The translations under genes were made by a program, and so were the position numbers. The notes beneath the pieces were generated by a model. The model had not been told where the DNA came from. It worked only from the letters and a program-made list of their open reading frames with translations, and made no database searches. Positions 1,286-60,910 of a stretch of DNA of 64,000 nt are shown one piece after another. The DNA is taken from assembly GCA_030746555.1 (NCBI GenBank), contig JASLMK010000023.1, positions 1 through 64,000 of the forward strand. The letters run 5' to 3'. The DNA is from Planctomycetota bacterium. GTDB taxonomy: Bacteria; Planctomycetota; UBA1135; GCA-002686595. The first letter of the stretch is position 1, and each line of letters opens with the position of its first letter.

Positions 1286-1312
1286 GCCGCGGCCCCCCCG
1301 TGGGGGTCGGAC

Positions 1313-1341
1313 GAGCGGTGCGGCGCGGGCGATCACCGCTC
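1313..1341. terminator. hairpin between convergent genes
   Basis: A perfect 8-bp inverted repeat (GAGCGGTG at 1313-1320, CACCGCTC at 1334-1341) with a 13-nt loop sits in the 66-bp gap between two convergent genes. It has no real T-tract, so it may act as a weak bidirectional terminator. Confidence 0.35.
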
Positions 1342-1351
1342 TATCGTGGCA

Positions 1352-2896: not shown

Positions 2897-2980
2897 CGTC
2901 GGGGATTGTAGGCCGCACGCCGACTCGCGCGCCCACGGACAATCCGATTCCTGCAGGCGGGTGCCCCGACCGGCGCTCGC

Positions 2981-3071
2981 TCAACAGTCGACGCGCACCG
3001 CGTGGGCGAGGTCGAAGGCCTGGCCGCAGGGGGAACCGGCAGAATCGGCGTACCGGAAGCCCTCCGCAATA
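2981..3071 (-). pseudogene. remnant of a shared exported-protein C-terminal module
   Basis: In the 274-bp gap between the two sulfatase-fold genes, the minus strand encodes a short open stretch ending in TGA (2981-2983). Its last residues, SPCGQAFDLAHAVRVDC, align without gaps to SPCGSGFNLTNGVAVTF, the end of the cupredoxin at 21573-22403. Shared positions include Y, D, SPCG, F, L and two V. No start codon or upstream module was found in the same frame. It looks like the degraded 3' end of a gene that once carried this module, but the match is short and could be chance. Confidence 0.4.
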
Positions 3072-3170
3072 CACGCCGAACGGCGCCCCGGGACGCGCCG
3101 GCGCGGCCGCGTTGACCACGCTCGCCGACGCTCCTACGATCCCGCGGCTCCGGGCCGCCTCAAAGACGCG

Positions 3171-5197: not shown

Positions 5198-7780
5198 ATG
5201 CAATCGATCCCCGTGCGTGCGTTGCTACTGCGCTCCTTCCCGGTCGCGATCCTGTCCCTGTTTGCCTCCGCTTCCCCCGCGGCTGCCCTCGCCCCGGCGG
5301 GCGACGTCGACGTCGAAGCCAGCCGCAAGCCTCCCTACACGGAGGTCCCCGGGAAGCTCGAGTTCAGCGGCGAGCTCACCGCGCGCCCGCTCCGGGTCTC
5401 CCAGGCACCCGACCTCGGCCTCACCGCCCAGGAGGTCCGCGCGCGCGCCAACACGGCGGTCGCCCTGCTCGGCGCCTACGACCTCGTGCGCCACGTTACG
5501 GAGACCGACGAGTACCTGATCCGGGTCCCCGCCGGTTCGACGGAGAACCAGATCGCGACCCAACTCCTCGCCAGCGGCTGCTTCCAGTACGTCGAGCCGA
5601 ACTGGATCGTCTACCCCATCGGCTGCTCGACGGACCCGCTGCTAGGAAACCAGTGGCACCACGACGCGAACATCATGCAGTCCTGCGACGCCTGGACCGT
5701 CGGCACGGGCGATCCGGGCGTGGTCGTCTCAATCTGCGACACGGGCGTGCGCACGACCCACCAGGACCTCCAACTCCACCGCTACGAGGGCTTCAACAGC
5801 GTCGACAACCAGTGGGAGAGCAACGGCGGCCAGATCAATGACGTCAACGGCCACGGGACGCTGACGACGGGCTGCGCGGCGGCCAACGGCAACAACGGCG
5901 TCGGGGTCTCCGGAGTGGGCTGGAACACCGGCCACCGCATGATGCGCGTGTCCAACAGCGGCAGCGGTAACTCCACCCTCGACGCCCTCACCCTCGCCGC
6001 GCGGACGGCCGCCGACGTCGGCGACCGGGTCGCGAGCGTCAGCTACTCGGGCGTGACGACCAACAGCCTGCAGGTCACCGGCCAGTACCTGCTCGATCGC
6101 GGCGCGTGGCTCGTGTGGGCCGCCGGCAACGACGGCGACAACCTCAGCGGCAACCGCGACGACAACATCATCGTCGTCGGGGCCACCGACTCCGGCGACG
6201 ACCGTGCGGGCTTCTCCAACTACGGGCCCTTCGTGGACCTCTTCGCCCCCGGGGTGAGCGTCTACTCGACGAGCAACGGCGGAAACTCGAGCTACAGCTC
6301 CGCGTCCGGGACGAGCTTCGCCTGCCCGCTCACCGCGGGCCTGGTGGGCTTGATCTGGTCCTTGGGCACGACCCTGACGCCAGCGGAGGTCGAGGACATC
6401 CTGCGCCAGGGCTGCGACGACCTGGGCGACCCCGGCGAGGACAACGTCTACGGCTTCGGACGCATCAACAGCTACCAGTCCGCGGACCTCGCGACGCCGC
6501 CCTTGATCATCTCCTTCCCGGGCGGGATCCCCGAGTACGTCGAGCCGTCGGGCACCACGACCCTGACGGTGAACACCGCGGACGGCCTGGACTCGGCGGT
6601 CCCCGGCTCTGGCGTGCTGCACGTCTCCGTGGCCGGCCAGCCGACCCAGGTGCCCCTGACGGACACGGCGCCGGGGGTGCACGAGGGGAACTTCCCCGCG
6701 ACCGCGTGCGGATCGCAGCTCGACTGGTATGTGAGCTTCGCCCTCACCGGCGGCGGCTCCCACACCTCCCCGGGCGGCGCCCCGGCGCAGACCTACGCCT
6801 CGGTGTCCGGTTTCCCGGCGATCGTCGCCAGCGACGATCTCGAGAGCGACAGCGGCTGGACCGGAGGAGTCGCGGGCGACGACGCGACGACCGGGGTGTG
6901 GACGCGGGTGGACCCGATCGGCACCCAGGCCCAGCCCGAGGACGACCACACCCCGGCACCGGGATCCCAGTGCTGGGTAACTGGTCAGGGTTCCAACGGC
7001 GGTTCAAACGGTGAAAACGACGTGGACGGCGGGAGCACGACCCTGCTCACACCGGTCTACGACCTGTCCGGCCTCACCGACCCGACGGTCAGCTACTGGC
7101 GCTGGTACTCCAACAGCAGCGGCGCCTCGCCCAACAACGACGTGTTCGTGATCGGCGCCTCCGACGACGGAGGAGCGAGCTGGACGACGGTGGAGACCGT
7201 GGGACCCGACGGTGCCGAGGTGGACGGTGGCTGGATCCAGCACGCCTTCCTCGTGTCCGATTTCGTGACCCCCAGCGCCCAGGTCAGACTGCGCTTCGTC
7301 GCTTCCGATCTCGGCTTCGGCTCGATCGTCGAGGCGGCCGTGGACGATCTGGTGATCTCAGATCTGGCCTGCGACGACTGTGGGGCGAACAACTACTGCA
7401 TCTCCGAACCCAACTCCTCGGGCTCGGCGGGGGAGATCAGTGCCACCGGCAGCTTCGTCGTCGGGGACAACGACCTGCACCTGTCCGCCTTCGGCGTCGC
7501 CCCCAGCCAGCCGGGACTGTTCTACTACGGACCGAACCAGGTCCAGTTCCCCTTCGGCAACGGCTTCCGCTGCGTCGGGGGCACCGTGGTCCGCCTGCCG
7601 GTCATCAACAGCGACTTCGCGGGCGACGCGGCCTACGATCCCGACCTGACCAACCTTCCGCCCAACGGTCAGATCACCCCGGGCTCGACCTGGAACTTCC
7701 AGTACTGGTTCCGTGATCCTGTCGCAGGTGGAGCGAACTTCGACTTCACCGACGGGGTCGAGATCCACTTCTGCCCCTGA
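5198..7780 (+). CDS. secreted subtilisin-like serine protease (S8) with shared C-terminal half
   Basis: 860 aa from ATG 5198, giving a clean signal peptide (MQSIPVRALLL...PAAALA). A propeptide-like region follows (about 30-150, ending in DEYLIRVPAG and FQYVEPNWIVYP), and then the peptidase S8 domain. The catalytic triad is Asp181 (SICDTGVR), His219 (NGHGT) and Ser373 (GTSFACP), with oxyanion Asn311 (AAGND). From residue 434 to the end the protein matches the C-terminal half of the next gene. That part has a Cys-containing beta-rich segment (about 545-715) and a final CGANNYCISEPNSSG...NFQYWFRDP...VEIHFCP module. All key catalytic residues are present, so an active extracellular or envelope protease is expected. 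The C-terminal half probably serves binding, display or export. The two genes run in the same direction with 128 bp between them. Confidence 0.9.
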   Translation: MQSIPVRALLLRSFPVAILSLFASASPAAALAPAGDVDVEASRKPPYTEVPGKLEFSGELTARPLRVSQAPDLGLTAQEVRARANTAVALLGAYDLVRHVTETDEYLIRVPAGSTENQIATQLLASGCFQYVEPNWIVYPIGCSTDPLLGNQWHHDANIMQSCDAWTVGTGDPGVVVSICDTGVRTTHQDLQLHRYEGFNSVDNQWESNGGQINDVNGHGTLTTGCAAANGNNGVGVSGVGWNTGHRMMRVSNSGSGNSTLDALTLAARTAADVGDRVASVSYSGVTTNSLQVTGQYLLDRGAWLVWAAGNDGDNLSGNRDDNIIVVGATDSGDDRAGFSNYGPFVDLFAPGVSVYSTSNGGNSSYSSASGTSFACPLTAGLVGLIWSLGTTLTPAEVEDILRQGCDDLGDPGEDNVYGFGRINSYQSADLATPPLIISFPGGIPEYVEPSGTTTLTVNTADGLDSAVPGSGVLHVSVAGQPTQVPLTDTAPGVHEGNFPATACGSQLDWYVSFALTGGGSHTSPGGAPAQTYASVSGFPAIVASDDLESDSGWTGGVAGDDATTGVWTRVDPIGTQAQPEDDHTPAPGSQCWVTGQGSNGGSNGENDVDGGSTTLLTPVYDLSGLTDPTVSYWRWYSNSSGASPNNDVFVIGASDDGGASWTTVETVGPDGAEVDGGWIQHAFLVSDFVTPSAQVRLRFVASDLGFGSIVEAAVDDLVISDLACDDCGANNYCISEPNSSGSAGEISATGSFVVGDNDLHLSAFGVAPSQPGLFYYGPNQVQFPFGNGFRCVGGTVVRLPVINSDFAGDAAYDPDLTNLPPNGQITPGSTWNFQYWFRDPVAGGANFDFTDGVEIHFCP
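6497..7780 (+). repeat. C-terminal module, copy 1 (paralogous to 9097-10383)
   Basis: This segment of the protease gene is paralogous over its whole length to 9097-10383 in the next gene. Most of it has diverged at many codons, but 6932-7027 matches 9532-9627 at 95 of 96 positions, and the last ~95 nt also differ at only a handful of positions. Confidence 0.9.
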
Positions 7781-7799
7781 AGGCGCAGCGATTCACCAC

Positions 7800-7833
7800 G
7801 GAGGGGCGGCGTCCGAACACGGACCGTCCCTCC
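7800..7833 (+). terminator. hairpin after the S8 protease gene
   Basis: An imperfect stem (7800-7814 against 7821-7833, GGAGGG... with ...TCCCTCC) with a small loop lies 20 bp past the protease stop. No T-run follows. It may terminate or attenuate transcription before the next gene. Confidence 0.4.
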
Positions 7834-7908
7834 ATTGAGAGCGACTACCTGGCAAGGACCAGGAACACGCACTCCCCACCCCCAGCATCCGTCGAAAAGC
7901 GTGATCCC

Positions 7909-10383
7909 ATGAAATGGAACAAGACGAAGACCCTGACCCTCTGGCTGGCTAGCGCGGCCCTCGGTGGGGTCGCCATCGGCCAGACCGGCGCCGCGATCAC
8001 GACCATCAAGGTCGGCATCGACGGCGGAGACCAGAACGACTTCCACTACTACGGGCAGAGCGGCGGGATCGCCGCCTACTCGATGGGCACGACCTCCTGT
8101 AATCCGGGAACGGAGGTGGTCACCTGGACCAGCAGCAACCATCCCGTCATCGGGCAGAACTTCTTCCGGCTGAAGGATGGTCGCTTCGAGCAGATCGGCC
8201 AGAGCTGGCTCAAGCACGGCTTCTGCGCCGTGAACGAGAGCGGCTGCGGCTCCTGCCAGGGCACCTCCTGCAACACCCTCGGACTCGGCTGCGCGGACAC
8301 GTATTGGGCGACGCTCAACGACGGCGCAGGCGGCGGACCCAAGTACCAGGTGAACGCCACCAGTGGAGTCCACCAACACCCCTATCCGAGTCCCAGCGGG
8401 CCCTCCACCATCCGCGGGCGGCTGCAGGTTCAGGTCAGCGATATCGACCCGACGCTGAACACCGGCGCGGAGTACTTCGCCGAGGCACAGTACGTCTCAC
8501 AGCACACCGCAGAGGACGGTAACGGCGGAATCTCCAACGCCTGGCGCAAGCTGAACGTCGTCTCGGTGAGCAACATCGACGGCGGCGGGATCACGATGGT
8601 CGACCAATGCGCACCCTACGCGTGGGCGTCGGAGGACAGCTCGGTCAACGTACAGGACATCATGTACGTCGACGAGGGCGGCAGCTCCATCCACGGCCAC
8701 TACACGGTGGGCTACAAGGTCGAGGCTCTCGGCAGCTCGTGGCGTTACACCTACGTCGTCTACAACCGCACGTCCGACTCCAGCGCCGGCTCCCTGTCGA
8801 TCCCGGTGGGCAGCTCGGCGACGCTGACCAACTTGTACTTCAACGACGTCGCCTACCACAGCGGCGAGCCCTTCAACTCCAACGACTGGTTGACCAGCCA
8901 GGCCGGCGGGATGCTCACGTGGCAGACCGACGAGACCTTCAGCCAAAACCCCAACGCCAACGCAATCCGCTGGGGGAACATGTGGAGCTTCGGGTTTGAC
9001 GCCGACGTCCCGCCGACGCCCGGCACGGCCGAACTCGGGATGTTCAAGGACAGCCACGTCATCCAGTTCGGCGTCGCAGGCCCCGGCGGCGATCCGCCGC
9101 CGCTGTTCATCAGCTTCCCCGAGGGCATCCCTGAGCTGGTCAACCCCTCGGGCAACACCACCCTGTCGGTGCACACCGCACCGGGCCTCGACTCCGCCAT
9201 CCCCGGCTCCGGCATCCTGCACGTGAACGTCGCCGGCCAGCCGACCCAGGTCCCCCTGACCGACACGGCTCCGGGCGAACACGAGGGGAACTTCCCTGCC
9301 GTGGACTGCGGATCTCAACTCGACTGGTACGTGAGCTTCGACCTCACGGGGGGCGGCACCTACTCCTCCCCCGCCGGAGCCCCAGCTGACACCTATACGT
9401 CCCTGGCCTGGGTGGTGAACCAGATAGCGGCAGATGACCTCGAGAGCGACACCGGCTGGACCGGCGGAGTTCCCGGTGACGACGCCACGACCGGTATGTG
9501 GACACGGGTCGATCCCATAGGCACCGACATCCAGCCCGAGGACGACCACACCCCGGCACCGGGCTCCCAGTGCTGGGTAACTGGTCAGGGTTCCAACGGC
9601 GGTTCAAACGGTGAAAACGACGTGGACAATGGCAGTACCACTCTGCTCTCACCCGTCTACAACATGTCGGGAACGATCGATCCCACGCTGAGCTATTGGC
9701 GCTGGTACAACAACGGAAGTGGGAGCAACCCCGCTCCCAACGCCGACGTGTTCGTCATCGACATCTCGAATGACGGCGGCGCTAGCTGGACGAACGTCGA
9801 GACCGTCGGCCCCAGCGGCGCGGAGACGAACGGCGGCTGGATCGAGCACGCATTCCTCGTCTCCGACTTCGTCACGCCCACGGCTGCTGTCCAGCTACGC
9901 TTCGTAGCCTCTGACCTCGGCAGCGGGTCATACGTCGAAGCGGCCATAGACGACCTGCAGGTCACCGACTTCGGCTGCGGCTGCGGTGCGAGCAACTACT
10001 GCATCTCCGAGCCCAATTCCTCGGGTGCGGCGGGGGTGATCAGCGCCTCGGGCAGCTTCGACGTCGGCGACAACGACCTGCACCTGTCCGTCGCCGGGGT
10101 CGCCTCCAGCCAGCCGGGGATCTTCTATTACGGCCAGAACCAGACGCAGATACCCTTCGGCAATGGCTTTCGCTGCATCGGCGGCTCAGTGGTACGCCTG
10201 CCGGTGGTCTGGAGCGACGGCACGGGCAGCTCGAGCTACGACCCCGACCTGACGAACCTCCCGCCCGGGGGCCAGATCGACCCGGGCTCTACCTGGAACT
10301 TCCAGTACTGGTTCCGTGATCCGGTCGCAGGTGGAGCGAACTTCGACTTCACCGACGCGATCGAGATCCACTTCTGCCCCTGA
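7909..10383 (+). CDS. exported protein of unknown function sharing the protease C-terminal half
   Basis: 824 aa; ATG 7909 gives a typical signal peptide (KTKTLTLWLASAALGGVAIG). Residues 25-395 form a unique N-terminal region that I do not recognise. It is beta-rich, with several Cys (SGCGSCQGTSCNTLGLGC near 113-125) and aromatic-rich stretches such as YTVGYKVEALGSSWRYTYVV. Residues 397-824 are paralogous to residues 434-860 of the upstream protease and end with the same NFQYWFRDP...IEIHFCP sequence. No catalytic motif is visible. The shared half and tandem arrangement suggest duplication of the display or adhesion part onto a different N-terminus. A strong hairpin at 10403-10439 closes the pair. 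Confidence 0.75.
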   Translation: MKWNKTKTLTLWLASAALGGVAIGQTGAAITTIKVGIDGGDQNDFHYYGQSGGIAAYSMGTTSCNPGTEVVTWTSSNHPVIGQNFFRLKDGRFEQIGQSWLKHGFCAVNESGCGSCQGTSCNTLGLGCADTYWATLNDGAGGGPKYQVNATSGVHQHPYPSPSGPSTIRGRLQVQVSDIDPTLNTGAEYFAEAQYVSQHTAEDGNGGISNAWRKLNVVSVSNIDGGGITMVDQCAPYAWASEDSSVNVQDIMYVDEGGSSIHGHYTVGYKVEALGSSWRYTYVVYNRTSDSSAGSLSIPVGSSATLTNLYFNDVAYHSGEPFNSNDWLTSQAGGMLTWQTDETFSQNPNANAIRWGNMWSFGFDADVPPTPGTAELGMFKDSHVIQFGVAGPGGDPPPLFISFPEGIPELVNPSGNTTLSVHTAPGLDSAIPGSGILHVNVAGQPTQVPLTDTAPGEHEGNFPAVDCGSQLDWYVSFDLTGGGTYSSPAGAPADTYTSLAWVVNQIAADDLESDTGWTGGVPGDDATTGMWTRVDPIGTDIQPEDDHTPAPGSQCWVTGQGSNGGSNGENDVDNGSTTLLSPVYNMSGTIDPTLSYWRWYNNGSGSNPAPNADVFVIDISNDGGASWTNVETVGPSGAETNGGWIEHAFLVSDFVTPTAAVQLRFVASDLGSGSYVEAAIDDLQVTDFGCGCGASNYCISEPNSSGAAGVISASGSFDVGDNDLHLSVAGVASSQPGIFYYGQNQTQIPFGNGFRCIGGSVVRLPVVWSDGTGSSSYDPDLTNLPPGGQIDPGSTWNFQYWFRDPVAGGANFDFTDAIEIHFCP
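9097..10383 (+). repeat. C-terminal module, copy 2 (paralogous to 6497-7780)
   Basis: Second copy of the 430-codon module. It includes the 96-nt block 9532-9627, which has a single difference (9564) from 6932-7027. Confidence 0.9.
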
Positions 10384-10402
10384 GGGCGCGGGACGACATC
10401 AC

Positions 10403-10439
10403 GGACGGGGCGGCCTCCAGCGGTGGGGCCGCCCCGTCC
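10403..10439. terminator. strong hairpin terminator
   Basis: A perfect 13-bp GC stem (GGACGGGGCGGCC at 10403-10415 with its complement at 10427-10439) and an 11-nt loop begins 20 bp after the stop of the exported-protein gene. It has no T-tract, as is common at this GC content, and could work in both directions. Confidence 0.6.
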
Positions 10440-10447
10440 TGCGTCCC

Positions 10448-10567
10448 CTAGACCATCTTCAGGTAGACGCGCTTCTCCAGCACGCTGGCGGTCAGCATGC
10501 CGCTGGCCATGGCGCTGATGACGCCGATGGAGGCGGCGTCGACGCCGGTCATCAACAAGCGCGGACC
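10448..10567 (-). pseudogene. 3' remnant of an FAD-dependent oxidoreductase
   Basis: Reading the minus strand from 10567 to the TAG at 10448-10450 gives GPRLLMTGVDAASIGVISAM followed by ASGMLTASVLEKRVYLKMV. This resembles the C-terminal end of phytoene-desaturase/retinol-reductase-like FAD oxidoreductases, where L.LTGQD....GV.GAL..G...AS closes the FAD-binding domain. The frame is closed by a stop at about 10589 and the segment just upstream has no matching sequence, so only about 39 codons survive. It lies next to the repeat-rich patch at 10.64-10.93 kb, which suggests that a rearrangement removed the rest. Confidence 0.5.
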
Positions 10568-10638
10568 TACGGTGTCGCACGCACTGCGTCACCTCACCGA
10601 CACGAGAGTGCCGCACACCCACCTTGGACGGGGAGCGG

Positions 10639-10842
10639 CTAGCCCGGATGATTCATGAAGACGTGCACCAGACCCAGCAACTCGGTTCGGGGTGGTGCCT
10701 TGCGGGTTCTGGCGACGCAGGCGACCCTGAACGGGTCGTCGAGGAAGCCAGGTTCTCATAAAGCGCCGCCAGGGGCCGAGAGGCCGTCGAAGACGGCCGG
10801 TTGCGAAGTCTGGTGTGCGTGTTCATGGATCATCCGGGCTGG
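10639..10842. mobile_element. short inverted-repeat-bounded element (MITE-like)
   Basis: The left end (10639-10668, CTAGCCCGGATGATTCATGA...) and right end (10814-10842, ending TTCATGGATCATCCGGGCTGG in part) are imperfect inverted repeats. Over the outer 25 nt they pair at 22 positions. The roughly 145-bp interior has no convincing ORF. Size, long terminal inverted repeats and lack of coding capacity fit a non-autonomous transposon remnant. The family is not assigned. No clear target-site duplication was seen. Confidence 0.5.
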
Positions 10843-10925
10843 CGTCCCGGGGATCGCCGCTCGAAGGCCATTGCCCGCGAGTCTGGCGTCCCGGGGATCG
10901 CCGCTCGAAGGCCATCGCCCGCGAG
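10839..10925. repeat. two tandem copies of a 43-bp repeat
   Basis: Copies at 10839-10881 and 10883-10925 begin CTGGCGTCCCGGGGATCGCC and differ at one position. The first overlaps the right end of the inverted-repeat element. With the remnant at 10448-10567 and the element at 10639-10842, they account for most of the 680-bp gene-free stretch 10384-11063; nothing further is recognised in 10926-11063 apart from the leader of the next gene. Confidence 0.8.
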
Positions 10926-51176: not shown

Positions 51177-51545
51177 CTAGCGGCGGCGCGCCGTCTTCTT
51201 CTTGGCCTTCTTCTTGGCCTTCTTCTTGGCCTTCTTCTTGGTCTTCTTCTTGGCCTTCTTCTTGGTCGCCTTCTTCTTGGCCTTCTTCTTGGCCTTCTTC
51301 TTGGTGGCCTTCTTCTTGGCCTTCTTCTTGGCCTTCTTCTTGGCCTTCTTCTTGGTGGCCTTCTTCTTGGCCCTCTTCTTGGTGGCCTTCTTCTTGGCCT
51401 TCTTCTTGGTCACCTTCTTCTTGGCCTTCTTCTTGGCCTTCTTCTTGGTCGTCCGCTTGGCGGCTTTCTTCTTGGTCTTGCGCTTCGCGGCCTTCTTGCG
51501 GGTGGTCTTCCGCTTGGCGGCCTTGCGCTTGGCTTTCTTGGCCAT
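51177..51545 (-). CDS. histone H1-like Lys/Ala repeat protein
   Basis: 122 aa from the ATG at 51545 (MAKKAKRKAAKRKTTRKK), with GAGGAG upstream. The whole chain is a near-regular array of 4-residue units (KKKA, KKAT, KKAK and variants) with Arg only at the two ends, like the C-terminal tail of histone H1 and the Hc1/AlgP-type bacterial proteins. It should be extended or helical and coat DNA through charge. The DNA is correspondingly repetitive (12-bp period), so the copy number of units is likely to vary between strains. The location beside HU supports a nucleoid role. Confidence 0.88.
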   Translation of the reverse strand: MAKKAKRKAAKRKTTRKKAAKRKTKKKAAKRTTKKKAKKKAKKKVTKKKAKKKATKKRAKKKATKKKAKKKAKKKAKKKATKKKAKKKAKKKATKKKAKKKTKKKAKKKAKKKAKKKTARRR

Positions 51546-52267
51546 CAGGAACTGTCTCCTCGATGTGTTTTCCGATCGGATGCGCCCCACGGGCGCAGAT
51601 TCCACGACATCAAGCGGTCGAATCGGTAGCGCCGGGGGAGTGCTTGCCCCGCTTCCACCGAGTTTTCGCCGCGTCCAGCACCCTCTGAGGGCACGGGGGC
51701 GATGTTCTGCCTCGGTTCATCGCGAGTGAGGCGCTCTCCGCCTCGTGGCGCGCACCCGGCCCCATTCTGGCGGATGCCCCCCCCACGAGACGGGCGGAGA
51801 GAGCCTCACCGCCTGGCCGACACCTCCTCTAAGCCATGCACAGAACGCTGCTTACGTTTGGCCTACAGACGGGCCGCACGCACCGGAGAGGTCGCGGGCA
51901 CCATCGAGGCGGCACCGGGACTGGCGGGATCCGCACCGTCGTGGGCACCCCTCGCCCCCCTACTCGGTAGCGACGGCTCGGGGCGTCACCGGGAGCAGCA
52001 CCATCATTCCCGTTTGCAGGATCATGCCCGCTTGCAAGGTCCTCTCGAACGCAACGGGAGCGCGTGTTTTTCCGACGATGTCCCCTCGCCTGGAACGAAA
52101 ACGCCACGGTTCGTTCGTGCGCGGGACCGGTCCGCCGGATACGAGGAAGGTCGGAGTGGTGGCGCGCGCACCCGTCCACAGCTTCTCAACAACGCGACCC
52201 GGGCCAGCAGCCCATCACCGCCCAGGGAACGGCAAGCCGGGTCCGCACGCGCGGACGACGCTTCCGC
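51546..52267. other. 722-bp gene-free stretch between the H1-like gene and rpmB
   Basis: No ORF here has protein-like composition on either strand, and base composition is less GC-rich than the surroundings in places (51550-51730, 52000-52080). I looked for tmRNA, SRP RNA and RNase P RNA signatures and found none. A short direct repeat (CCCGTTTGCAGG near 52008 and CCCGCTTGCAAGG near 52028) is present. It must contain the promoter of the H1-like gene and could hold a structured RNA that I cannot identify. Confidence 0.5.
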
Positions 52268-52673: not shown

Positions 52674-53180
52674 CTAGAAGAGGTCGTCGAGGGCCTTGGC
52701 GGCGCTGGAGGTGAAGTCCTCGGCCAGCCCCTCTCGGCCGTCACCGCCCGCCGGGCGTGAGGCGATCTCCCTCAAGAGGGCCTCGAGGTGCCCGCATCGC
52801 TCTCGGGCGTAGTAGCGCACGAGCCCCAGGTTCGAGCGCTCGTCGAACACGACCGTGAACAGGGCCCGGCCCCCGACGTGCTCGATCTGGACGCTCTCGC
52901 GCGCGCCCTGGTGGAACAGGGAGCTGAAGCTCTCCTCCCCCAGCAGGCGAGCCATCTCCCGCGTGGCCGCGAAGGACGCCGCCGCCAGGGCGGCCACGGA
53001 TTCTGGTGAGTGGGCCACGGACTCGCCGCGGCGCGTCACGAGGTGGCCGCTCTCGTCGATGAGCATCGCGCAACGCGCGCCGGAGGTCTCGAGGAACCCG
53101 TCCAGCTCGTGGTCGATGCGATCCACGTCGTCGGCGTAGAAGACCAGTCTGTCCGCTCGGAGTTGATCGTCTGAGACCAT
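52674..53180 (-). CDS. roadblock/LC7-domain protein (MglB-like), last gene of the GTPase operon
   Basis: 168 aa from ATG 53180, 11 bp after the GTPase stop. Residues ~20-125 have the roadblock/LC7 pattern: an N-terminal helix, LETSGARCAMLIDESGHLVT, a central helix AALAAASFAATREMARLLGE, and SVQIEHVGGRALFTVVFDER followed by the closing helix. A 40-residue acidic tail ends DDLF. In Myxococcus, MglB is the GTPase-activating partner of MglA and is a dimer of this fold. The same role is the natural guess here, directly downstream of the MglA-like gene. Confidence 0.85.
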   Translation of the reverse strand: MVSDDQLRADRLVFYADDVDRIDHELDGFLETSGARCAMLIDESGHLVTRRGESVAHSPESVAALAAASFAATREMARLLGEESFSSLFHQGARESVQIEHVGGRALFTVVFDERSNLGLVRYYARERCGHLEALLREIASRPAGGDGREGLAEDFTSSAAKALDDLF

Positions 53181-53191
53181 CGCGGGGTGTC

Positions 53192-54502
53192 CTACTGCAA
53201 GAAGGAGAGAGCCAGGCTGCCGAGGACAGCACCGAGGCCGACCGAGACGATGACGATCACGCCGGTCACCAGTGCGCTCTGGTGCCCAGGGCTCACGACC
53301 GGGGTCGGACGAGCAGCGCTCCGGCGAGCGGCGGCCTCGTCGGCGACTCCGAGCGGGTGCACGACGGCCCGAGGCGGCGGCGGAGCGACGAGATCGTGGT
53401 CGGGTTCCATCAGGGTGCGCGTGTCGGCGACCACGGGAGTGGCGGCGGCGGTGTGCGCGGCGTCGAGGCCCGGCTGCGGCGGTGGAGTCGCCGCCTGCGG
53501 AACGGAAGGGGTCGGCACGGAGGCGAGAGTGAGCGGCGCGGGGGGGGCGCAGGCCGGCGGCTGCGGCGCAGCCGGCGCCGGCTGCGACGGTTGCTCGGGC
53601 TCGGCGGCGCTCAGGCGGATCGAGGATCGCGCCGGCTGCGTAGTCGGCACGGGATGGGGCGCGGGGGCGGGAGGCGGGGCCTGCTGGGCAGCAGCGGGCG
53701 AGACAGGAAGCGGGATGGACGCCGGCTCCGTGGCCCGCGGATCGTCCTCGGCGGGCGCGGGCGCGGGCGCCGTCGACGAGGCTTCGGCCGCCACGGGTGC
53801 CACGGGGGGCATCGCGGCGCCGGCGGGTGCCTGAGCAACCGCCGGTGCGACAGGGGCCGCCGCGGGCTGCGGGCTCGGCGCGGGAGCGACCGGCGCTCGG
53901 TCGGCGTTGGTCGACTGCTGCTGGCTGTGGATGCTCTCGAGGACCGCGGCCGCCAGGGCCTTGAGGGTCGGGAACACGCCCTGCCCGGTGTGCGCCGTCG
54001 CCTCGAAGCTCCGCAGGCCGCGCGGGTTGAGCTCCCGCTCGAGCGACTCGATCGGCAAGGCGTCGGTCAGATCGCGCTTGTTGTACTGGATGACCATCGG
54101 CAGGTCGGCGAGCGAGCGCCCGTACTCGGCCATGTTCGCTTCGAGGTTGCGCAGGGACTCGAGGTTCTCCTCCACCATCGAGGCGGACGAGTCGGCGACG
54201 AAGATCACGCCGTCCACCCCCTGCAACACGAGCTTGCGCGTCGAGTTGTAGTAGACCTGCCCGGGCACGGTGTAGATCTGGAAGCAGGTCTTCATCCCCG
54301 CCACGGTGCCGAGGTCGAGGGGCATGAAGTCGAAGAAGAGCGTGCGGTCGCCGTCGGTGCTGATGCTGGTCAGCTCGCCACGGTTCTCCTGGGGTGCACG
54401 CTGGTGAACGACCTCGAGGTTGGTCGTCTTCCCGGACATCCCGGGGCCGTAGTAGACGACTTTCGCGTTCACCTGCTTCTGAGCGAAGTTGATCTGGACC
54501 AT
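53192..54502 (-). CDS. MglA-type Ras-like GTPase with Pro/Ala linker and C-terminal membrane anchor
   Basis: 436 aa; MglA itself is about 195. Residues 1-195 are a complete small GTPase: P-loop GPGMSGKTTN (19-28), switch I region with STDGDRTLFFDFMP, G3 TVPGQVYYNSTRK (Gly-Gln in place of the Ras Asp-x-x-Gly), FVADSSA, and G4 NKRD (141-144). Then comes a roughly 210-residue linker almost entirely of Pro, Ala, Gln, Thr and Val, and finally one hydrophobic helix (ALVTGVIVIVSVGLGAVLGS) at the extreme C-terminus. The enzyme domain should therefore hang from the membrane on a long tether. ATG 54502 directly abuts the stop of the upstream roadblock gene. Known MglA proteins are soluble, so this is an unusual form. 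Confidence 0.92.
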   Translation of the reverse strand: MVQINFAQKQVNAKVVYYGPGMSGKTTNLEVVHQRAPQENRGELTSISTDGDRTLFFDFMPLDLGTVAGMKTCFQIYTVPGQVYYNSTRKLVLQGVDGVIFVADSSASMVEENLESLRNLEANMAEYGRSLADLPMVIQYNKRDLTDALPIESLERELNPRGLRSFEATAHTGQGVFPTLKALAAAVLESIHSQQQSTNADRAPVAPAPSPQPAAAPVAPAVAQAPAGAAMPPVAPVAAEASSTAPAPAPAEDDPRATEPASIPLPVSPAAAQQAPPPAPAPHPVPTTQPARSSIRLSAAEPEQPSQPAPAAPQPPACAPPAPLTLASVPTPSVPQAATPPPQPGLDAAHTAAATPVVADTRTLMEPDHDLVAPPPPRAVVHPLGVADEAAARRSAARPTPVVSPGHQSALVTGVIVIVSVGLGAVLGSLALSFLQ

Positions 54503-55006
54503 CTAGCTGTTCCTGCTTGATTCGGGGACCGAGTCGCCCGTCCTGTCGAGCCAGCCCGTCCCTCCAGGAGGCGACGGGCACGCCCCCGGGAACGCTTCCC
54601 GAGGTGTTCTGAGCCCCGCGGCGGCGGGCGGGTCGTCGGGCGCCGAGTCCGCCGGTCGGCGACGATGGCGGGCCAGCCGGGCAGCCGCGGCCTCCATGGG
54701 CAGGCGCAGCTCCCGTGGGGCGGCGCCACGCTCGAGCACGACCGCGAGGATGGCATGGTGGGCTGCGAGCAGGATCAACCCGCCGCGCTGGGCGCGCATC
54801 ACGGCGCGGGAGGGCACGCCCCAGGCGAGGGGATCCAAGTCGCGCTCGATGCCCTGCATCCAGCCCGCCGCAAGCGCGGCCACCGAGGCCGCGAGCGCCT
54901 CGTCCACCCCCGGTTGCGCCGCCGCGATCAGCACGCCGTCGGGAGCCACGAGCAGGGCGTGGCGCACGCCAGGCTCGCGAGTCAGGGCATCGAGGACCTC
55001 GTTCAT
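54503..55006 (-). CDS. second roadblock/LC7-like protein
   Basis: 167 aa. ATG 55006 overlaps the stop of the TPR gene (ATGA) and its own stop abuts the GTPase start. Residues 1-110 fit the roadblock fold: VLDALTREPGVRHALLVAPD, GVDEALAASVAALAAGW (central helix), SRAVMRAQRGGLILLAAHHA and ILAVVLERGAAPRELRLPME. A basic then Pro-rich tail follows. It is more divergent from MglB than the 52674-53180 protein. Two different roadblock proteins flanking one GTPase suggests a heteromeric regulator. Confidence 0.75.
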   Translation of the reverse strand: MNEVLDALTREPGVRHALLVAPDGVLIAAAQPGVDEALAASVAALAAGWMQGIERDLDPLAWGVPSRAVMRAQRGGLILLAAHHAILAVVLERGAAPRELRLPMEAAAARLARHRRRPADSAPDDPPAAAGLRTPREAFPGACPSPPGGTGWLDRTGDSVPESSRNS

Positions 55007-56085
55007 GCCGATTCTCCCTGCTCGCCGGACTCCCCGGCGAGCTCCTCCACCGCCCGCACGTGGGCCCGCTGCGGCTGCTCGGTGGTCCACACGGCTCCGG
55101 CGCCCACCTCGCCGGCGGCGAAGGCGAGGGTTCCGAACTCCCCCTCTACCTGCGCGAAGTGCAGCTGCCCGAGGCCGAGCTTTCGGGCCGCCGAGCGCGA
55201 GTGGTCGATCACGTCCCGTACACAGCGAGCCGTCCGCTCCGCCGTCGCGCCGCGCTGCCCCTGAACGAGCGCCGTTGCGCCGCGCACGTAGAAGGCCGCC
55301 CGAACACCGACGTCGGAGGCCAGGGCCTTGAGGGTGGGACGCACCGACCTCTCGGTCGCCCGCTGGGGGGCGTCACCGGTCTCGTCCGCCAACCGTCCAG
55401 TCCGCTCCACGGTTCGCAAGGCCTCGTCCACGTCCCCACCCTGCTCGGCGAGGGAAGCGACGGTCCGAAAGCGCGCCTCGAGCGCCGGGTCGCCGGGCAA
55501 CAGCTCCAACATGCGGGCCACGGTGCGGCGGGCCTCGATCCAGGCTCCGGCACGGGAAGCCAGGGCCAGGCGCAGTCGCAATGGCGCGAGCTCGCCGGGC
55601 ATGCAGGCCGCCGCCTCGTCCAACAAGGCGAAGGCCTCCTCGCCGTCGGCGCGCCGCCGGTCCGCAACGAAGCGCGCGACGCGCGCGTGCGCTCGGAAGA
55701 GGAGTGCCTCGGCGTCCTTCGGATTCGCAGCGCGCCACTCGCAGGCCGTCTCCTCGGCCCGCGCCACGCGGCCTGCCTCGAGGTGCAGCTCGCACAGCTC
55801 ACGCCAGACCGCCGGCCGCGGGGAGACGCGCATCTCCCCCTGGAGAGCACGCAGGCGATCCTCGCGCAACAGCTCGATGGTGCGGTCGAGCATCCGCCGC
55901 AGCTCGGTACTCTCGGGGTGGTTCTCCAGGCCTTCGGCGCAGATCCGGCGCACCTCCTCCAGCCTCCCGCTGGCCGCGTAGGCATGGGCCATGCGGGCGT
56001 AGTTGCGGGCGGAGGGATCCCGGGCGAGGATCCGGCCCGCGGCGCGTGTCCGCCCACGGGACAGGAAGCGTCCGAAGAGGGTCAC
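55003..56085 (-). CDS. TPR protein with C-terminal roadblock-like domain
   Basis: 360 aa from a GTG that overlaps the preceding stop (GTGA). Residues 20-235 are TPR-like helix pairs: ARNYARMAHAYAASGRLEEV, VWRELCELHLEAGRVARAEE, LFRAHARVARFVADRRRADG. Residues ~248-355 resemble the roadblock/profilin-like fold: PTLKALASDVGVRAAFYVRG, ATALVQGQ, a helix RTARCVRDVIDHSRSAARKL, FGTLAFAAGEVGAGAVWTTE and a last helix. No membrane segment. It is probably the scaffold that gathers the GTPase and roadblock proteins. Confidence 0.72.
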   Translation of the reverse strand: MTLFGRFLSRGRTRAAGRILARDPSARNYARMAHAYAASGRLEEVRRICAEGLENHPESTELRRMLDRTIELLREDRLRALQGEMRVSPRPAVWRELCELHLEAGRVARAEETACEWRAANPKDAEALLFRAHARVARFVADRRRADGEEAFALLDEAAACMPGELAPLRLRLALASRAGAWIEARRTVARMLELLPGDPALEARFRTVASLAEQGGDVDEALRTVERTGRLADETGDAPQRATERSVRPTLKALASDVGVRAAFYVRGATALVQGQRGATAERTARCVRDVIDHSRSAARKLGLGQLHFAQVEGEFGTLAFAAGEVGAGAVWTTEQPQRAHVRAVEELAGESGEQGESA

Positions 56086-57164
56086 GGGCCCTCCTCGATG
56101 AACGCCTCGAGGGCCGCCAAGTCCGCGAGGACGCGCGGGGAGTGCTCCCAGTCCTCGGCCGCATTGGCCGCCGAACGCCGCATGTGGGCCAGGGCCGCCT
56201 GGAGCTCGCCGTTTTGGATGGCGAGCAAGCCGTGTTCGCGCGAGGCCTCGGCGACAAGCCGGCGCCGCTCGCGCTCGAGGGCTTCCGCGCGCGCCTTCTC
56301 CGCGACGCGCCCCTCCAGCTTCACGACGCGCTCTCCGAGCGCCCGAATCTCGCCGCGGCGGGCCAAACCGCCGAGCCAGAGCCGGTTCTCGACCAGCATC
56401 TCCTCCAGGCGCGCGTGGCGCTCGATCAGCTCCTCTCCCGAGGCGATGTCACTGGCTCCCGGCAGGCTTCTGTACTCCTCGTGGAGTTGGCGCTCCCGCA
56501 GAGCGAGGGAGGAGAGCAACCCCGCCACGGCCATCGCCCCGACCGCCAGCCGATGCCGACGAGAGGTGCGCCGGCGGCACTCCATCTGCTCGTAGCGCAG
56601 GTCCCTGATCATGCGCGCCACGTCGCGGCGCGTTCGGTCGTGCAGCAGGACCTCCTGGAGGGCGTTGATCGCGTCCTTGTGGCGCCCATCGGCGGCCGCT
56701 TCCTCGGCGCGGCGCAGGTAACGCTCGACCATCTCCCCCACGTCCCCGTTGCGACGCAGGACACCGGCGAGGTCCTGCTCGACCTCGCGGGCCTCCGGCG
56801 CGTGCTGGGCGAGCACCTCCAGCACGCCGCGGGCGCGCTCCGCATCGCCCCGGTTCTCCAGCAAGGCCGCCAGCCTGCGGCCCTCCTCGATGAGGGAAAT
56901 GCGGTACTTGCGCAGAACGGGCGGATGCGCGATCCCCAAGATCAACAGGCTCTCCAGGCGGCGCACGTCTGACGGGTGGTCGCAGAGCCCCTCCACGAGG
57001 CAGCGCGCCAACAGGGCGGCCGTGCGGCGATCGAACTCCTCCGCGGCGTTCTGGATCTGGTCGGAGAGCTCGGGCCCGGTCCGGCCCTCGCTCTCCTCGG
57101 CCCCTATGAGGGTGTCGATCCACTCGTCGATGGACAGGCTCCCCAGGGTTGCTCTCGGGGTCAT
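56082..57164 (-). CDS. single-pass membrane protein with helical repeats and coiled coil; first gene of the GTPase operon
   Basis: 360 aa from ATG 57164 with GGAGAGGA a few bases upstream, the best start signal of the five genes. Residues 1-195 are all helical with TPR/ARM-like spacing (DVRRLESLLILGIAHPPVLR, HKDAINALQEVLLHDRTR). A basic stretch and one hydrophobic helix follow at about 204-222 (HRLAVGAMAVAGLLSSLAL), and then a long charged segment (225-350) with coiled-coil character. I do not recognise a family. Its place at the head of the operon, coupled through overlapping codons, suggests it anchors or senses for the GTPase module. Confidence 0.7.
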   Translation of the reverse strand: MTPRATLGSLSIDEWIDTLIGAEESEGRTGPELSDQIQNAAEEFDRRTAALLARCLVEGLCDHPSDVRRLESLLILGIAHPPVLRKYRISLIEEGRRLAALLENRGDAERARGVLEVLAQHAPEAREVEQDLAGVLRRNGDVGEMVERYLRRAEEAAADGRHKDAINALQEVLLHDRTRRDVARMIRDLRYEQMECRRRTSRRHRLAVGAMAVAGLLSSLALRERQLHEEYRSLPGASDIASGEELIERHARLEEMLVENRLWLGGLARRGEIRALGERVVKLEGRVAEKARAEALERERRRLVAEASREHGLLAIQNGELQAALAHMRRSAANAAEDWEHSPRVLADLAALEAFIEEGP

Positions 57165-57303: not shown

Positions 57304-57337
57304 GACGCCGGCGCACCCTCTCGGGCGCGCCGGCGTC
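57304..57337 (-). terminator. hairpin after the SbsA-Ig lipoprotein gene
   Basis: A perfect 11-bp stem (57304-57314 GACGCCGGCGC with 57327-57337) and a 12-nt loop lie about 42 bp beyond the stop of the minus-strand gene at 57380. It separates that gene from the GTPase operon, which is consistent with the operon having its own promoter in about 57165-57300. Confidence 0.55.
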
Positions 57338-57379: not shown

Positions 57380-60300
57380 CTAGAGCTCGGGGGTCACGCT
57401 CAGGGCTCCCGCCGTGTTGCGCGCGGGGTCGGGAAGCCCTGCGGCAAGGTCCAGCCAGTCGCCCTCCTCGAGCGCCTCGAGCATCACCACGCGCACGTAG
57501 TTGGGGTCGACGTCGAGCACGCCCGCGATCACCTGCCCCGCCGAAGCGGACCAGTTGAGGGCGTCGGTGGCGAAGTTCATGTCCACGTCCTCGTCGAACA
57601 GGACGTCCACGATCAGGCCGCTGGAATCCTCGTCACGGTTGACGAAGGCCGCGGCGATCCCCGGCGCGTCCGCGTCGCCGACGATCGTCCCGTTGAGGGG
57701 GACGGGCGTCGAGGACATGGCGTTACCGCTGTGGTCGGCGACGTTGGCGACGGCAATCGTCAGGGACTGGTTCGGATCGAGGTCCGAGTCGACACCGAGG
57801 TGGATGTCGACCGAGTTTGACCCGCTGACGTAGCGTGCGAGCGCTCCGACCAGGCTGACGCTGTTGGCACCGTTCGTCACGGTGTAGTTCGACAGGTCCA
57901 AGGCGGTCACGACCTCCACGGGCTCATCGAAGGTGATGGAGACGAAGTCCCCGCCACGATTGGGAACCGACGTCCCGTCCACCGACACCAACAGCGGCGG
58001 GGCGGAATCCGATCCGGCGACGTTGTTCACCAGGGCGCCGGTGAAGTTCCCCGCGAGGTCGGTCATGCCAAAGGCGATCGGGAACCCGATCTGAGGTTCG
58101 ACCGCGAAAGACACCCGGACCACGCGCGGGCCCACGAGCACCGCGGTCTGGCCGAAGTTCCCGTTGTTGTAGTTGTAGTTCCCCGCGGTGGAGGCGTACT
58201 CGCGGTCGAGCGCCTCGTCGGCGCGGAACAGGAGGGAGAACGAGTCAGCGTCCATCCTCCGGATGCCGTCGACACCGACGCTGGGGTCGACGAGGTCACC
58301 GCTCACGCTGACACCCGGAACGGAGTCGGCGGCGCTCATGGAGACTCCCTGAGCGCTTTGGACGTCGTCCACCGACACGGTGTAGGCGTTGGGGACCTGC
58401 AGGTTGTCGGCGCTGAGGGAGTCCAACTCGATCGAGACGGTCGAGGGCTCCTGGAAACCGAAGCTCGCACCGGAGAGGTCGATCTCGGTTCCGCCGTCGG
58501 TGACCGTGTAGTTCGACCAGTCCGTGAGATCCCAGGGGCTCATGCCCCTGTCGAAGTCGATCGTGATGATGTCGTTCGACTCTCCCGAGCGCGCCTCGAG
58601 GACGTCGACACCGAGGTTCATCAGTGGCTCGGAGGGGTCCTCGGACGCGAGGGGCATGGCCGTGACCGGGAACATGTAGTTCCCGACGAGGTCCGTCGTC
58701 CCCCAGACGTCCAGCGTGTCGCCGGCGTTCACGGTGAAGCCGAAGCTCAGGCGCACGCCCAGCCCGTCGTCGAGCTCGACGGCCGAGGACGGCGTCCCGC
58801 GCAGGTTGCCGAGCGAGTCGCGCAGCACGTACCGGGTTCCCTCTACGTTGCCCAGCTCGTCCCACAGGTCGGCTACGCCCCAGCAGTGCTCGCTGAAACG
58901 CACGACGACCTCGTCGAGGACGATCGAGTCGCGCCAACCCGTGTGGGCCGCGGGCAGGTTCTCCTCGGCGACGACCATCCCGGTCAACGCCGCGCTGACC
59001 ACCTCGTTGCCGGCGATGTCACGCATGCCGGAGAGGGTGATGCTGTAGTCGTCGCCGCGCTGCAGGTTGACGCCGGTAGCGTCGGCGAAGACGAGGGTCG
59101 CCCGCCTCATGGTCGGGTCGTAGGAGATCGAGGCGCCGGTGGTGTTGACCGGCGTCCCGACCGGCGACTCGACGCTCCAGTTGGCATCGTCGATCGCCTC
59201 TGTGGCGATGATGTCGTCATTGAACGCAACGAGCAGTTCGTCGTTGTTGGCACCCTCGATGGCCGAGGCCGTGGCGTGGGTGGCCCGCGGGGGAGTCGAA
59301 TCGGTCGACGTGATCGTGATCGCCGTCTGCGGGGCGGCCATCACGTTGCCCGCCAGGTCCTCGAGGTTGGACACGGTCAGGGTGTGGTCCCCGGGCGTGG
59401 GAGGGGCGTCGGTCAGCACGCGCACCCGATCGAGCCCGGTCTGCAAGGTCGCGGCCAGTACGTTCACGCTCCCGCCAACGAACGTCCAGTTGGCGGCGTT
59501 CTCGGCCGCCGACTGCTCGACGTCCTCGGAGAGCGTGACCTCGATCGTCTTCCCGAACGGGTCGAGCGAGCGGTTCTGGATGGCGCTGGTCACGAAGACG
59601 TCGGATTCGTCACCCGAGACGACACCCGTGGCGCTGGCCGTGAAACTCTGGCCGTCGACGTCCAGGACTGCGAGGGCGTCGAACTGGTAGGCGTCACCGT
59701 TCTTCATGTCGAAGTCGAGGCCGACCCGGAGGGTCTTCTCGATGAAGTCGTAGGTCCAGGTCTGCCCGGCAGGGTCGACGGGAGTCCCGTCGACGGTGAG
59801 CGTCCAGTTCCCCGAGTCGACGGCGGCGTCGGGATCGAAGGCCTGGTCGAAGCTGAGCGAGAGGTAGTCCTCGCCCTCGTTCTCCACCGTGGTCGCCTCG
59901 CTGGCCGCAAACGCGTTCTCGACCGGGGCGAGCTGCACGATGTCCTGGGGACCCCCGGCGTGGAGGTTCCCGTGGACGTCGGTCAGGTTCAGCAGGGTCA
60001 CCTGGTCCACCCCGGGGATGACCGCGGTGGAGAAGGTCACGCGCAGGGTCTCGGGCGAGGGCTGGGTGACGTTCAGTGCGATGTCGGGCAGAGGCAGGAG
60101 GAAGTTCGTGACGCTCAAGCACGTCATCGGGTCCATGGCCTCGTCGAAGGTGAAGTCCAAGACGCGGCCGTACTCGTCCTCGACGAGGTTCTGAGCGGCG
60201 CCGTCGGGCACGAGGTTGGGCGAGGTGCTGTCCCCCGCGGCCGTCCCGTCGACCGGCAGGTCGGAGACGGCTACGTCCGCCACGCTCCACATCGACGCGA

Positions 60301-60910
60301 CGGCGACCTGGAACGAGGGGTGCAGGTTCGCGCCGCTGCCGAGAGTCAGCGAGGCGACCTGGGTCGCAACGTCGAAGTCGATGGTGCTTCCTGCGAGGTC
60401 GAGCGCCTGACCGTCGATCCACAGGAGCCAGTTCGCCGGATCGGTCGCCTGCTCGGGGACCACGCGCGCGCCGGAGAAGGAGACCTCCAACCAGTCGCCG
60501 CCGAGCCCGGGATTCTGGATCCCGTCGGTGACGCTGAAGGTGGGCGCAGCGCCGTCCGTCGTCGTCACGTCCACGAACCCGTCGTCGATCGCTCCGACTC
60601 CGGTGATGCGGACCTGGTGGGAGGGCGTGACGCGCTCGTCCCAAACGACGAGGAAGTCCGCGCCGGTGCTGGAGACGCTGGATGCGGACTGCCCGCCGCT
60701 GGCCTCGAAGTTGGCCGCCGCCGGCGCGGTGAGCGGCTCGGTGTCGAGGGTGACCCGGGTCGTCAGGCCGTCCGGATCGGCGGAGAGGTCCTGGGAGACG
60801 TGCTCGATGTTGATGTCCGCGCCCGCGGTGGACGAACCGCCGGAGCAGCCGGCCGCAAGGAACACGAGACCACAGGCGAAGAGGTGGGTGATGCCGGTGA
60901 GGCGCTTCAT
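57380..60910 (-). CDS. giant lipoprotein with repeated SbsA-type Ig-like domains
   Basis: 1176 aa. The signal peptide ends in the lipobox LAAGC (Cys22). The remainder is about ten repeats of roughly 100 residues with the SbsA/Big_5 Ig pattern: a strand such as LSLSFDQAFDPDAAVDSGNW, then YTVTDGGTEIDLSGASFGF, and a DLAGN-type loop (VTDLAGNFTGAL, LEDLAGNVMA). Repeats differ enough that none is a recent copy. Such proteins are extracellular stalks or S-layer-like matrix components. It follows the beta-propeller gene on the same strand after 252 bp. Confidence 0.85.
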   Translation of the reverse strand: MKRLTGITHLFACGLVFLAAGCSGGSSTAGADINIEHVSQDLSADPDGLTTRVTLDTEPLTAPAAANFEASGGQSASSVSSTGADFLVVWDERVTPSHQVRITGVGAIDDGFVDVTTTDGAAPTFSVTDGIQNPGLGGDWLEVSFSGARVVPEQATDPANWLLWIDGQALDLAGSTIDFDVATQVASLTLGSGANLHPSFQVAVASMWSVADVAVSDLPVDGTAAGDSTSPNLVPDGAAQNLVEDEYGRVLDFTFDEAMDPMTCLSVTNFLLPLPDIALNVTQPSPETLRVTFSTAVIPGVDQVTLLNLTDVHGNLHAGGPQDIVQLAPVENAFAASEATTVENEGEDYLSLSFDQAFDPDAAVDSGNWTLTVDGTPVDPAGQTWTYDFIEKTLRVGLDFDMKNGDAYQFDALAVLDVDGQSFTASATGVVSGDESDVFVTSAIQNRSLDPFGKTIEVTLSEDVEQSAAENAANWTFVGGSVNVLAATLQTGLDRVRVLTDAPPTPGDHTLTVSNLEDLAGNVMAAPQTAITITSTDSTPPRATHATASAIEGANNDELLVAFNDDIIATEAIDDANWSVESPVGTPVNTTGASISYDPTMRRATLVFADATGVNLQRGDDYSITLSGMRDIAGNEVVSAALTGMVVAEENLPAAHTGWRDSIVLDEVVVRFSEHCWGVADLWDELGNVEGTRYVLRDSLGNLRGTPSSAVELDDGLGVRLSFGFTVNAGDTLDVWGTTDLVGNYMFPVTAMPLASEDPSEPLMNLGVDVLEARSGESNDIITIDFDRGMSPWDLTDWSNYTVTDGGTEIDLSGASFGFQEPSTVSIELDSLSADNLQVPNAYTVSVDDVQSAQGVSMSAADSVPGVSVSGDLVDPSVGVDGIRRMDADSFSLLFRADEALDREYASTAGNYNYNNGNFGQTAVLVGPRVVRVSFAVEPQIGFPIAFGMTDLAGNFTGALVNNVAGSDSAPPLLVSVDGTSVPNRGGDFVSITFDEPVEVVTALDLSNYTVTNGANSVSLVGALARYVSGSNSVDIHLGVDSDLDPNQSLTIAVANVADHSGNAMSSTPVPLNGTIVGDADAPGIAAAFVNRDEDSSGLIVDVLFDEDVDMNFATDALNWSASAGQVIAGVLDVDPNYVRVVMLEALEEGDWLDLAAGLPDPARNTAGALSVTPEL

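Follow-up and report, generated by a model that had tools for sequence, protein, structure and literature searches.

A conserved Planctomycetota operon encoding a predicted membrane-anchored MglA-type GTPase, MglB, two further roadblock proteins and a candidate receptor

Organization of the gene cluster

The window, meaning the whole 64,000-nucleotide stretch of Planctomycetota DNA that was analysed, belongs to a 4.0-Mb draft genome in 137 contigs (G000) and carries five coupled genes, here designated A to E, on the minus strand within positions 52674-57164. A sequence-only reading of the window had described these genes and their junctions, and coordinates, strand and junctions were confirmed exactly: A and B share a GTGA overlap, B and C share an ATGA overlap, the TAG of C is immediately followed by the ATG of D, and a gap of 11 bp separates D from E. 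The same reading had given the products, in order, as a membrane coiled-coil protein, a TPR plus roadblock-like protein, a roadblock protein, a Ras-like GTPase and another roadblock protein. All five identities held, with two amendments: A has TPR-like helices in addition, predicted to face the cytoplasm, and E is assigned to MglB itself. The features of the locus are as follows.

57304-57337, minus strand: 15-bp hairpin, G+C-rich and without a T run, between the upstream lipoprotein gene and A
57164-56082, minus strand: gene A, 360 aa; TPR-like helices, one transmembrane helix and a coiled-coil or helical far side
56496-56552, minus strand: transmembrane segment of A, residues about 204-223, predicted from hydropathy and alignment
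56085-55003, minus strand: gene B, 360 aa; TPR superhelix and C-terminal roadblock domain
55030-55353, minus strand: roadblock domain of B, residues 245-352, from the AlphaFold model and hhalign
55006-54503, minus strand: gene C, 167 aa; roadblock/LC7 protein that is by sequence not an MglB and ends in a variable, Pro-containing tail
54502-53192, minus strand: gene D, 436 aa; MglA-type GTPase with a linker and a C-terminal membrane anchor
53933-54502, minus strand: G domain of D, residues 1-190, with R53, Q82, TVPGQ and NKRD invariant
53219-53275, minus strand: C-terminal transmembrane tail of D, residues 410-428, predicted from hydropathy
53180-52674, minus strand: gene E, 168 aa; MglB, roadblock GTPase-activating protein (GAP), with a C-terminal ...ALDDLF motif

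The hairpin at 57304-57337, which was absent from the output of the terminator scan, may mark a transcription boundary upstream of A.

The GTPase and its GTPase-activating protein

Among bacterial polarity GTPases, MglA has been studied best, chiefly as the switch that steers the movement of Myxococcus, and it is reset by MglB through GTP hydrolysis. The G domain of D proved homologous to MglA structures along its whole length (E 2e-67 with the single sequence and 1e-94 with the profile), and its intrinsic arginine finger R53, Q82, P-loop, TVPGQ and NKRD motifs were invariant among 25 sequences. Group-1 MglA proteins are marked by an arginine next to the G2 threonine and by TVPGQ in G3 (PMC4316618), and D shows both marks, as R53-T54 and as TVPGQ with Q82; besides, D is coupled to the mglB gene E directly downstream. 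With 436 aa, and 294-557 aa in its homologues, D is longer than the single-domain proteins of at most 240 aa admitted to that survey, a length filter rather than a functional trait. By every sequence criterion tested other than length, D is assigned to the group-1-type MglA proteins and, with E, to the MglA/MglB kind.

Between the G domain, which ends at about residue 190-191, and the C-terminal helix, D carries a Pro/Ala-rich linker of approximately 215 residues. The helix is hydrophobic (mean hydropathy 2.43). Of 41 sequences from the window's family and order, two are truncated where their contig stops and all the other 39 have such a tail, as do 13 of 14 distant loci of the phylum. The membrane topology proposed for D, like that for A, is predicted from these hydrophobic segments.

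The product of E matched the Pfam family Robl_LC7 (E 7e-10) and the NCBIfam MglB model NF052242 with an E-value of 1.6e-28, under the curated cut-off of that model. Moreover, it aligned to MglB over its full length (profile positions 12-168 to MglB 4-157, E 1e-34), and the match to MglB structures takes in the C-terminal helix end, which in Myxococcus MglB regulates nucleotide exchange (PMC6785124). These profile matches identify E as MglB, with a predicted GAP activity on D.

Two additional roadblock proteins

The sequence-only reading had staked itself on a roadblock fold in the proteins encoded at 54503-55006 and 55003-56085, and the fold was supported in both. C matched Robl_LC7 in Pfam (E 1.7e-9; 37.7 bits against a cut-off of 23), and the structures retrieved with C as query were other roadblock proteins, with no match to MglC. 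In B, Pfam matched the TPR repeats and gave no direct match for the C-terminal roadblock domain. Foldseek searches with the models of B and A listed TPR proteins in poor superposition and did not recover the roadblock domain; domain profiles were therefore used instead. When aligned with hhalign, the domain of B gave 97.4% against C (E 1e-11) and 80% against E, compared with at most 2% in 60 column shuffles and 0.3% for the TPR part of B. The AlphaFold model (mean pLDDT 91) shows the topology helix-strand-strand-helix-strand-strand-strand-helix, and the domain holds a conserved RGxTALVQG...GATAERTAR. Model and profiles support a roadblock fold for the C-terminal domain of B.

Gene A and a detached full-length receptor

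The hydrophobic segment of A, which is preceded by the basic stretch RRRTSRRHR, is weak in the window (mean hydropathy 1.48) and scores 1.6 or more in 29 of 31 sequences. Outside the window's family, the gene before B encodes a protein of approximately 1,050 residues composed of a DUF4388 (PATAN) domain, TPR repeats, one transmembrane helix, a PEGA-like segment and a PQQ-type propeller. This long receptor-type A was seen in all six order relatives checked outside the family and in most of the distant loci whose contigs reach far enough. The A of the window's family aligns only to about positions 280-620 of the 1,048-position model of the long A, both ends being missing, and on this alignment represents the middle third of the phylum's receptor, without PATAN domain and propeller; the sensory role of the trimmed protein is thus that of a candidate.

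One diverged full-length relative of the receptor was found in the same genome, on contig C104 and detached from the operon (L155, 2410-5514). It carries DUF4388 (E 5e-10) and matches the long-A model at 195-814 (E 8e-18), while its propeller was not recognized by Pfam. Orthologues of this protein occur in about 50 genomes of the window's family and were found in no sampled order relative. The adjoining genes, ThiF/MoeB-like and MobA-like, were considered as a functional clue and rejected as housekeeping genes. As a separate observation, one distant locus (L131) has apparently two receptor-type A genes (765-4118 and 7409-10885), which flank the GTPase block.

Conservation of the gene set

The search for related loci, whose patterns favour the window's family, yielded 41 loci titled Planctomycetota, planctomycete, Pla86 or 'bacterium', including the Pla86 chromosome, so that at least one relative has a complete genome record that is not metagenome-assembled. 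The order A-B-C-D-E was kept in 29 of the 30 loci of the window's Planctomycetota family that cover the whole block, with A to E joined by overlaps or short gaps and A shortened in a few; the sole exception (L066) retains A, D and a diverged E. Across the phylum, MglA was present in 179 of 392 genomes sampled, and a homologue of B, counted regardless of strand, lay within 3.5 kb upstream of the best MglA of the genome in 112 of the 147 MglA-bearing genomes listed. Of 20 distant loci, chosen by their match to B, every one except L128, whose contig stops short, has C after B. Where there is contig beyond that, D and E come next, except in L143, which has B and C alone. Such conservation of gene order, across the family and largely across the phylum, goes far beyond chance. 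The five genes, which the sequence-only reading had required to be conserved together, are indeed so conserved, and the block is not a local oddity but is widespread in Planctomycetota.

One family has D, E and a long A together without B and C (L160), and a relative bearing the same genus label (L143) carries the B-C pair at another place. In the lineage g22, B and C have been lost and A, D, a diverged E and the detached receptor are kept, and the scaffold is therefore dispensable in that lineage. Of all pairs, B and C showed the closest correlation in their divergence (r 0.84). These patterns suggest that a B:C scaffold would be separable from the D:E switch and the receptor.

Joint loss of the operon and the detached receptor

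Operon and detached receptor were found together in 49 genomes, neither was found in 7, the operon alone in 2 and the receptor alone in 3 (Fisher p 9e-6, ignoring kinship). The counts were tallied by hand with degenerate MglA scored as absent; the five mismatches are incomplete or fragmented genomes, and G017 and G026, apparently without the operon but with contigs that end just past the lipoprotein gene, were excluded from the strict count. In G014, G037 and G054 the distance from the lipoprotein gene to the bL28 gene is only about 220, 340 and 590 bp, respectively, with no remnant of A-E, whereas G036 and G053 have only degenerate A and D left and lack the detached receptor. In the lipoprotein tree the former three genomes form one clade and the latter two another, and these two separate clades without operon and receptor point to joint loss in at least two lineages; the co-loss statistic rests on few independent events. 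Since the detached receptor is missing where A-E have been lost, including the clean five-gene deletions, the six genes probably form one system.

In G036 (L158), a degenerate MglA gene (6971-7747; about 42% identity, in a 259-aa frame) lies next to a shortened A, and B, C, E and the detached receptor were not detected; this MglA gene may represent either a stage of decay or a repurposed GTPase.

One could argue that A-E are mere neighbours held in place by general synteny with the bL28 and HU genes, since the flanking lipoprotein, bL28 and HU genes are likewise syntenic in the window's family. However, A-E were deleted as a single block while the flanks were retained, B-C-D-E persist in distant families, and a receptor unlinked to the operon was lost along with it, all of which makes this explanation very hard to credit.

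Proposed mechanism and output

From the parts and their order, the invariant catalytic residues, the hydrophobic segments, the co-inheritance and the co-loss, all of them read from sequence, we infer the pairing of B with C, a direction of signalling and a pilus output. We regard as reasonably likely, though well short of assured, a system in which a membrane-tethered MglA has its state set by an envelope signal, is reset by MglB, works with a roadblock scaffold and most likely steers type IV pili. D would be fixed to the inner membrane by the helix at its C-terminus, and a long, flexible linker would tether its G domain; unlike the soluble MglA of Myxococcus, D is proposed not to need recruitment from the cytoplasm. 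E would reset D by GTP hydrolysis through the Arg53 and Gln82 of D itself. C and the roadblock domain of B probably bind each other directly and would form a scaffold, and the TPR superhelix of B could dock effectors or the GTPase. A and the detached PATAN-TPR-TM-PEGA protein would span the inner membrane and relay an envelope or surface signal to the scaffold, and the relayed signal would set the place or the time at which MglA is in its GTP-bound state. Local control of type IV pilus extension would be the most likely output, leading to surface movement or attachment. Signals may run from receptor to GTPase or from GTPase to receptor. An MglA switch is probably wired to a surface receptor in Planctomycetota. 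The sequence-only reading had proposed a purpose-built GTPase machine equipped with a scaffold and a membrane receptor of its own, and this is borne out beyond what that reading could draw on, since a full receptor A exists outside the family and the detached copy is lost with the operon; it is refined in that, within the window's family, the operon retains just the central third of the receptor as A, and the polarity or motility output is kept here as a proposal.

The pilus output is the weakest step. The source genome carries PilB/PilT-type ATPases, but PilT was above the cut-off in 384 of 392 genomes of the phylum, and a near-universal gene is uninformative on the link to pili; besides, no pilus gene was seen beside the operon. 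In its favour are findings from other bacteria. In Myxococcus the TPR protein SgmX is the effector of MglA-GTP for pili (PMC7519303), and in Bdellovibrio the TPR protein Bd2492 binds MglA (PMC3983030); both are MglA partners in pili or invasion. Work on Synechocystis cited in PMC10519157 found that the pilus motor PilB is a binding partner of PATAN domains. Alternatively, the same membrane-bound switch could serve envelope growth, polarity of the budding or division site, or the sorting of proteins at the membrane, which we consider a lesser but serious possibility. The PEGA and propeller ectodomain and the permanent tethering would suit envelope surveillance, the widespread operon is not tied in position to pilus genes, and G036 retains pilus motors despite its degenerate system. 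Yet motility or pili are what the characterized group-1 MglA systems act on, and independent links to pilus motors exist both for TPR partners and for PATAN domains, for which reasons steering of type IV pili is preferred here.

Comparison with known systems

The MglA/MglB pairs of Myxococcus xanthus and Thermus share with the operon the G domain with the same Arg finger and TVPGQ, the C-terminal helix of MglB and the adjacency of GTPase and GAP genes. Unlike the M. xanthus MglA, which has 195 aa and no tail, D carries the Pro/Ala linker and the transmembrane tail, and compared with those pairs the operon adds two roadblock proteins and a membrane receptor and lacks a RomR-type receiver protein. 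The MglB/MglC/RomR system of M. xanthus likewise has more than one roadblock protein per MglA, and its roadblock paralogues bind each other (PMC12719032); however, C was unmatched to MglC in the structure search, and B fuses its roadblock domain to a TPR superhelix. Among the TPR partners of MglA, Bd2492 comes near to B in length (353 aa), but in the available text on SgmX and Bd2492 a roadblock domain is not described, and their genes lie in other operons than mglA.

A transcription-linked cassette similar to the actinobacterial conservons (CvnA-D), with the GTPase as the output of a sensor rather than as a polarity marker, would likewise combine, within a single operon, a small GTPase with a roadblock protein and a membrane sensor (PMC4316618). 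The GTPase of the conservons belongs to group 2 and their sensor is a histidine kinase, and they have neither a TPR-roadblock protein nor a tail-anchored GTPase, whereas D shows the group-1 marks R53 and TVPGQ, neither A nor B yielded a histidine kinase domain, and the block holds no DNA-binding gene. This alternative therefore appears improbable, although less so than chance adjacency of the five genes.

At the level of design, the proposed scaffold resembles the eukaryotic Ragulator-Rag system, in which roadblock pairs scaffold small GTPases at a membrane (PMC5680233), although the Rag GTPases, unlike what is predicted for D, are not known to span the membrane themselves. A broader proposal, in which an integral-membrane GTPase, a B-C hetero-roadblock scaffold and a PATAN/propeller sensor form a phylum-wide receptor-GTPase machine of Ragulator-Rag-like design that couples envelope sensing to pilus motors or polarity, is advanced only tentatively.

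New here are the predicted membrane anchor of the GTPase, the fusion of TPR and roadblock, the operon that includes a receptor and the spread across the phylum. No description of MglA or roadblock GTPases in Planctomycetota was found among the open-licence papers searched, and one may exist elsewhere. The 2014 survey of prokaryotic small GTPases by Wuichet and Sogaard-Andersen discarded every sequence longer than 240 aa, and Planctomycetes are absent from its lists (PMC4316618); a long membrane-anchored MglA would thus have been filtered out. How outside signals feed MglA is understood in few species. In an entire phylum, MglA seems to be a built-in membrane protein, encoded next to a candidate receptor, a scaffold and a GAP, and the operon offers a compact gene set for testing receptor-to-GTPase signalling.

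Flanking genes and further observations

Upstream of A lies a lipoprotein-like gene (57380-60910, minus strand; 1,176 aa) with a signal ending in LAAGC and no Pfam match, which is full-length in most genomes of the window's family and gives only partial repeat matches outside it. It was considered as a sixth member of the operon and rejected because it is retained in genomes without A-E. Draft contigs often break just past this gene, at or within the MglA block (G017, G026, G047, G050, G008 and G031), perhaps owing to the repetitive Pro/Ala linker sequence. At 51177-51605 on the minus strand, adjoining the HU gene, is a gene for a histone-H1-like protein of 142 aa, very rich in lysine and alanine, with AKKKAKKK-type repeats. 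In addition, a second MglA paralogue, 42-49% identical, occurs in families f3, f6 and f7 (e.g., G074:C8:129483-130040), mostly within open frames of 580-750 residues that represent large GTPase fusions.
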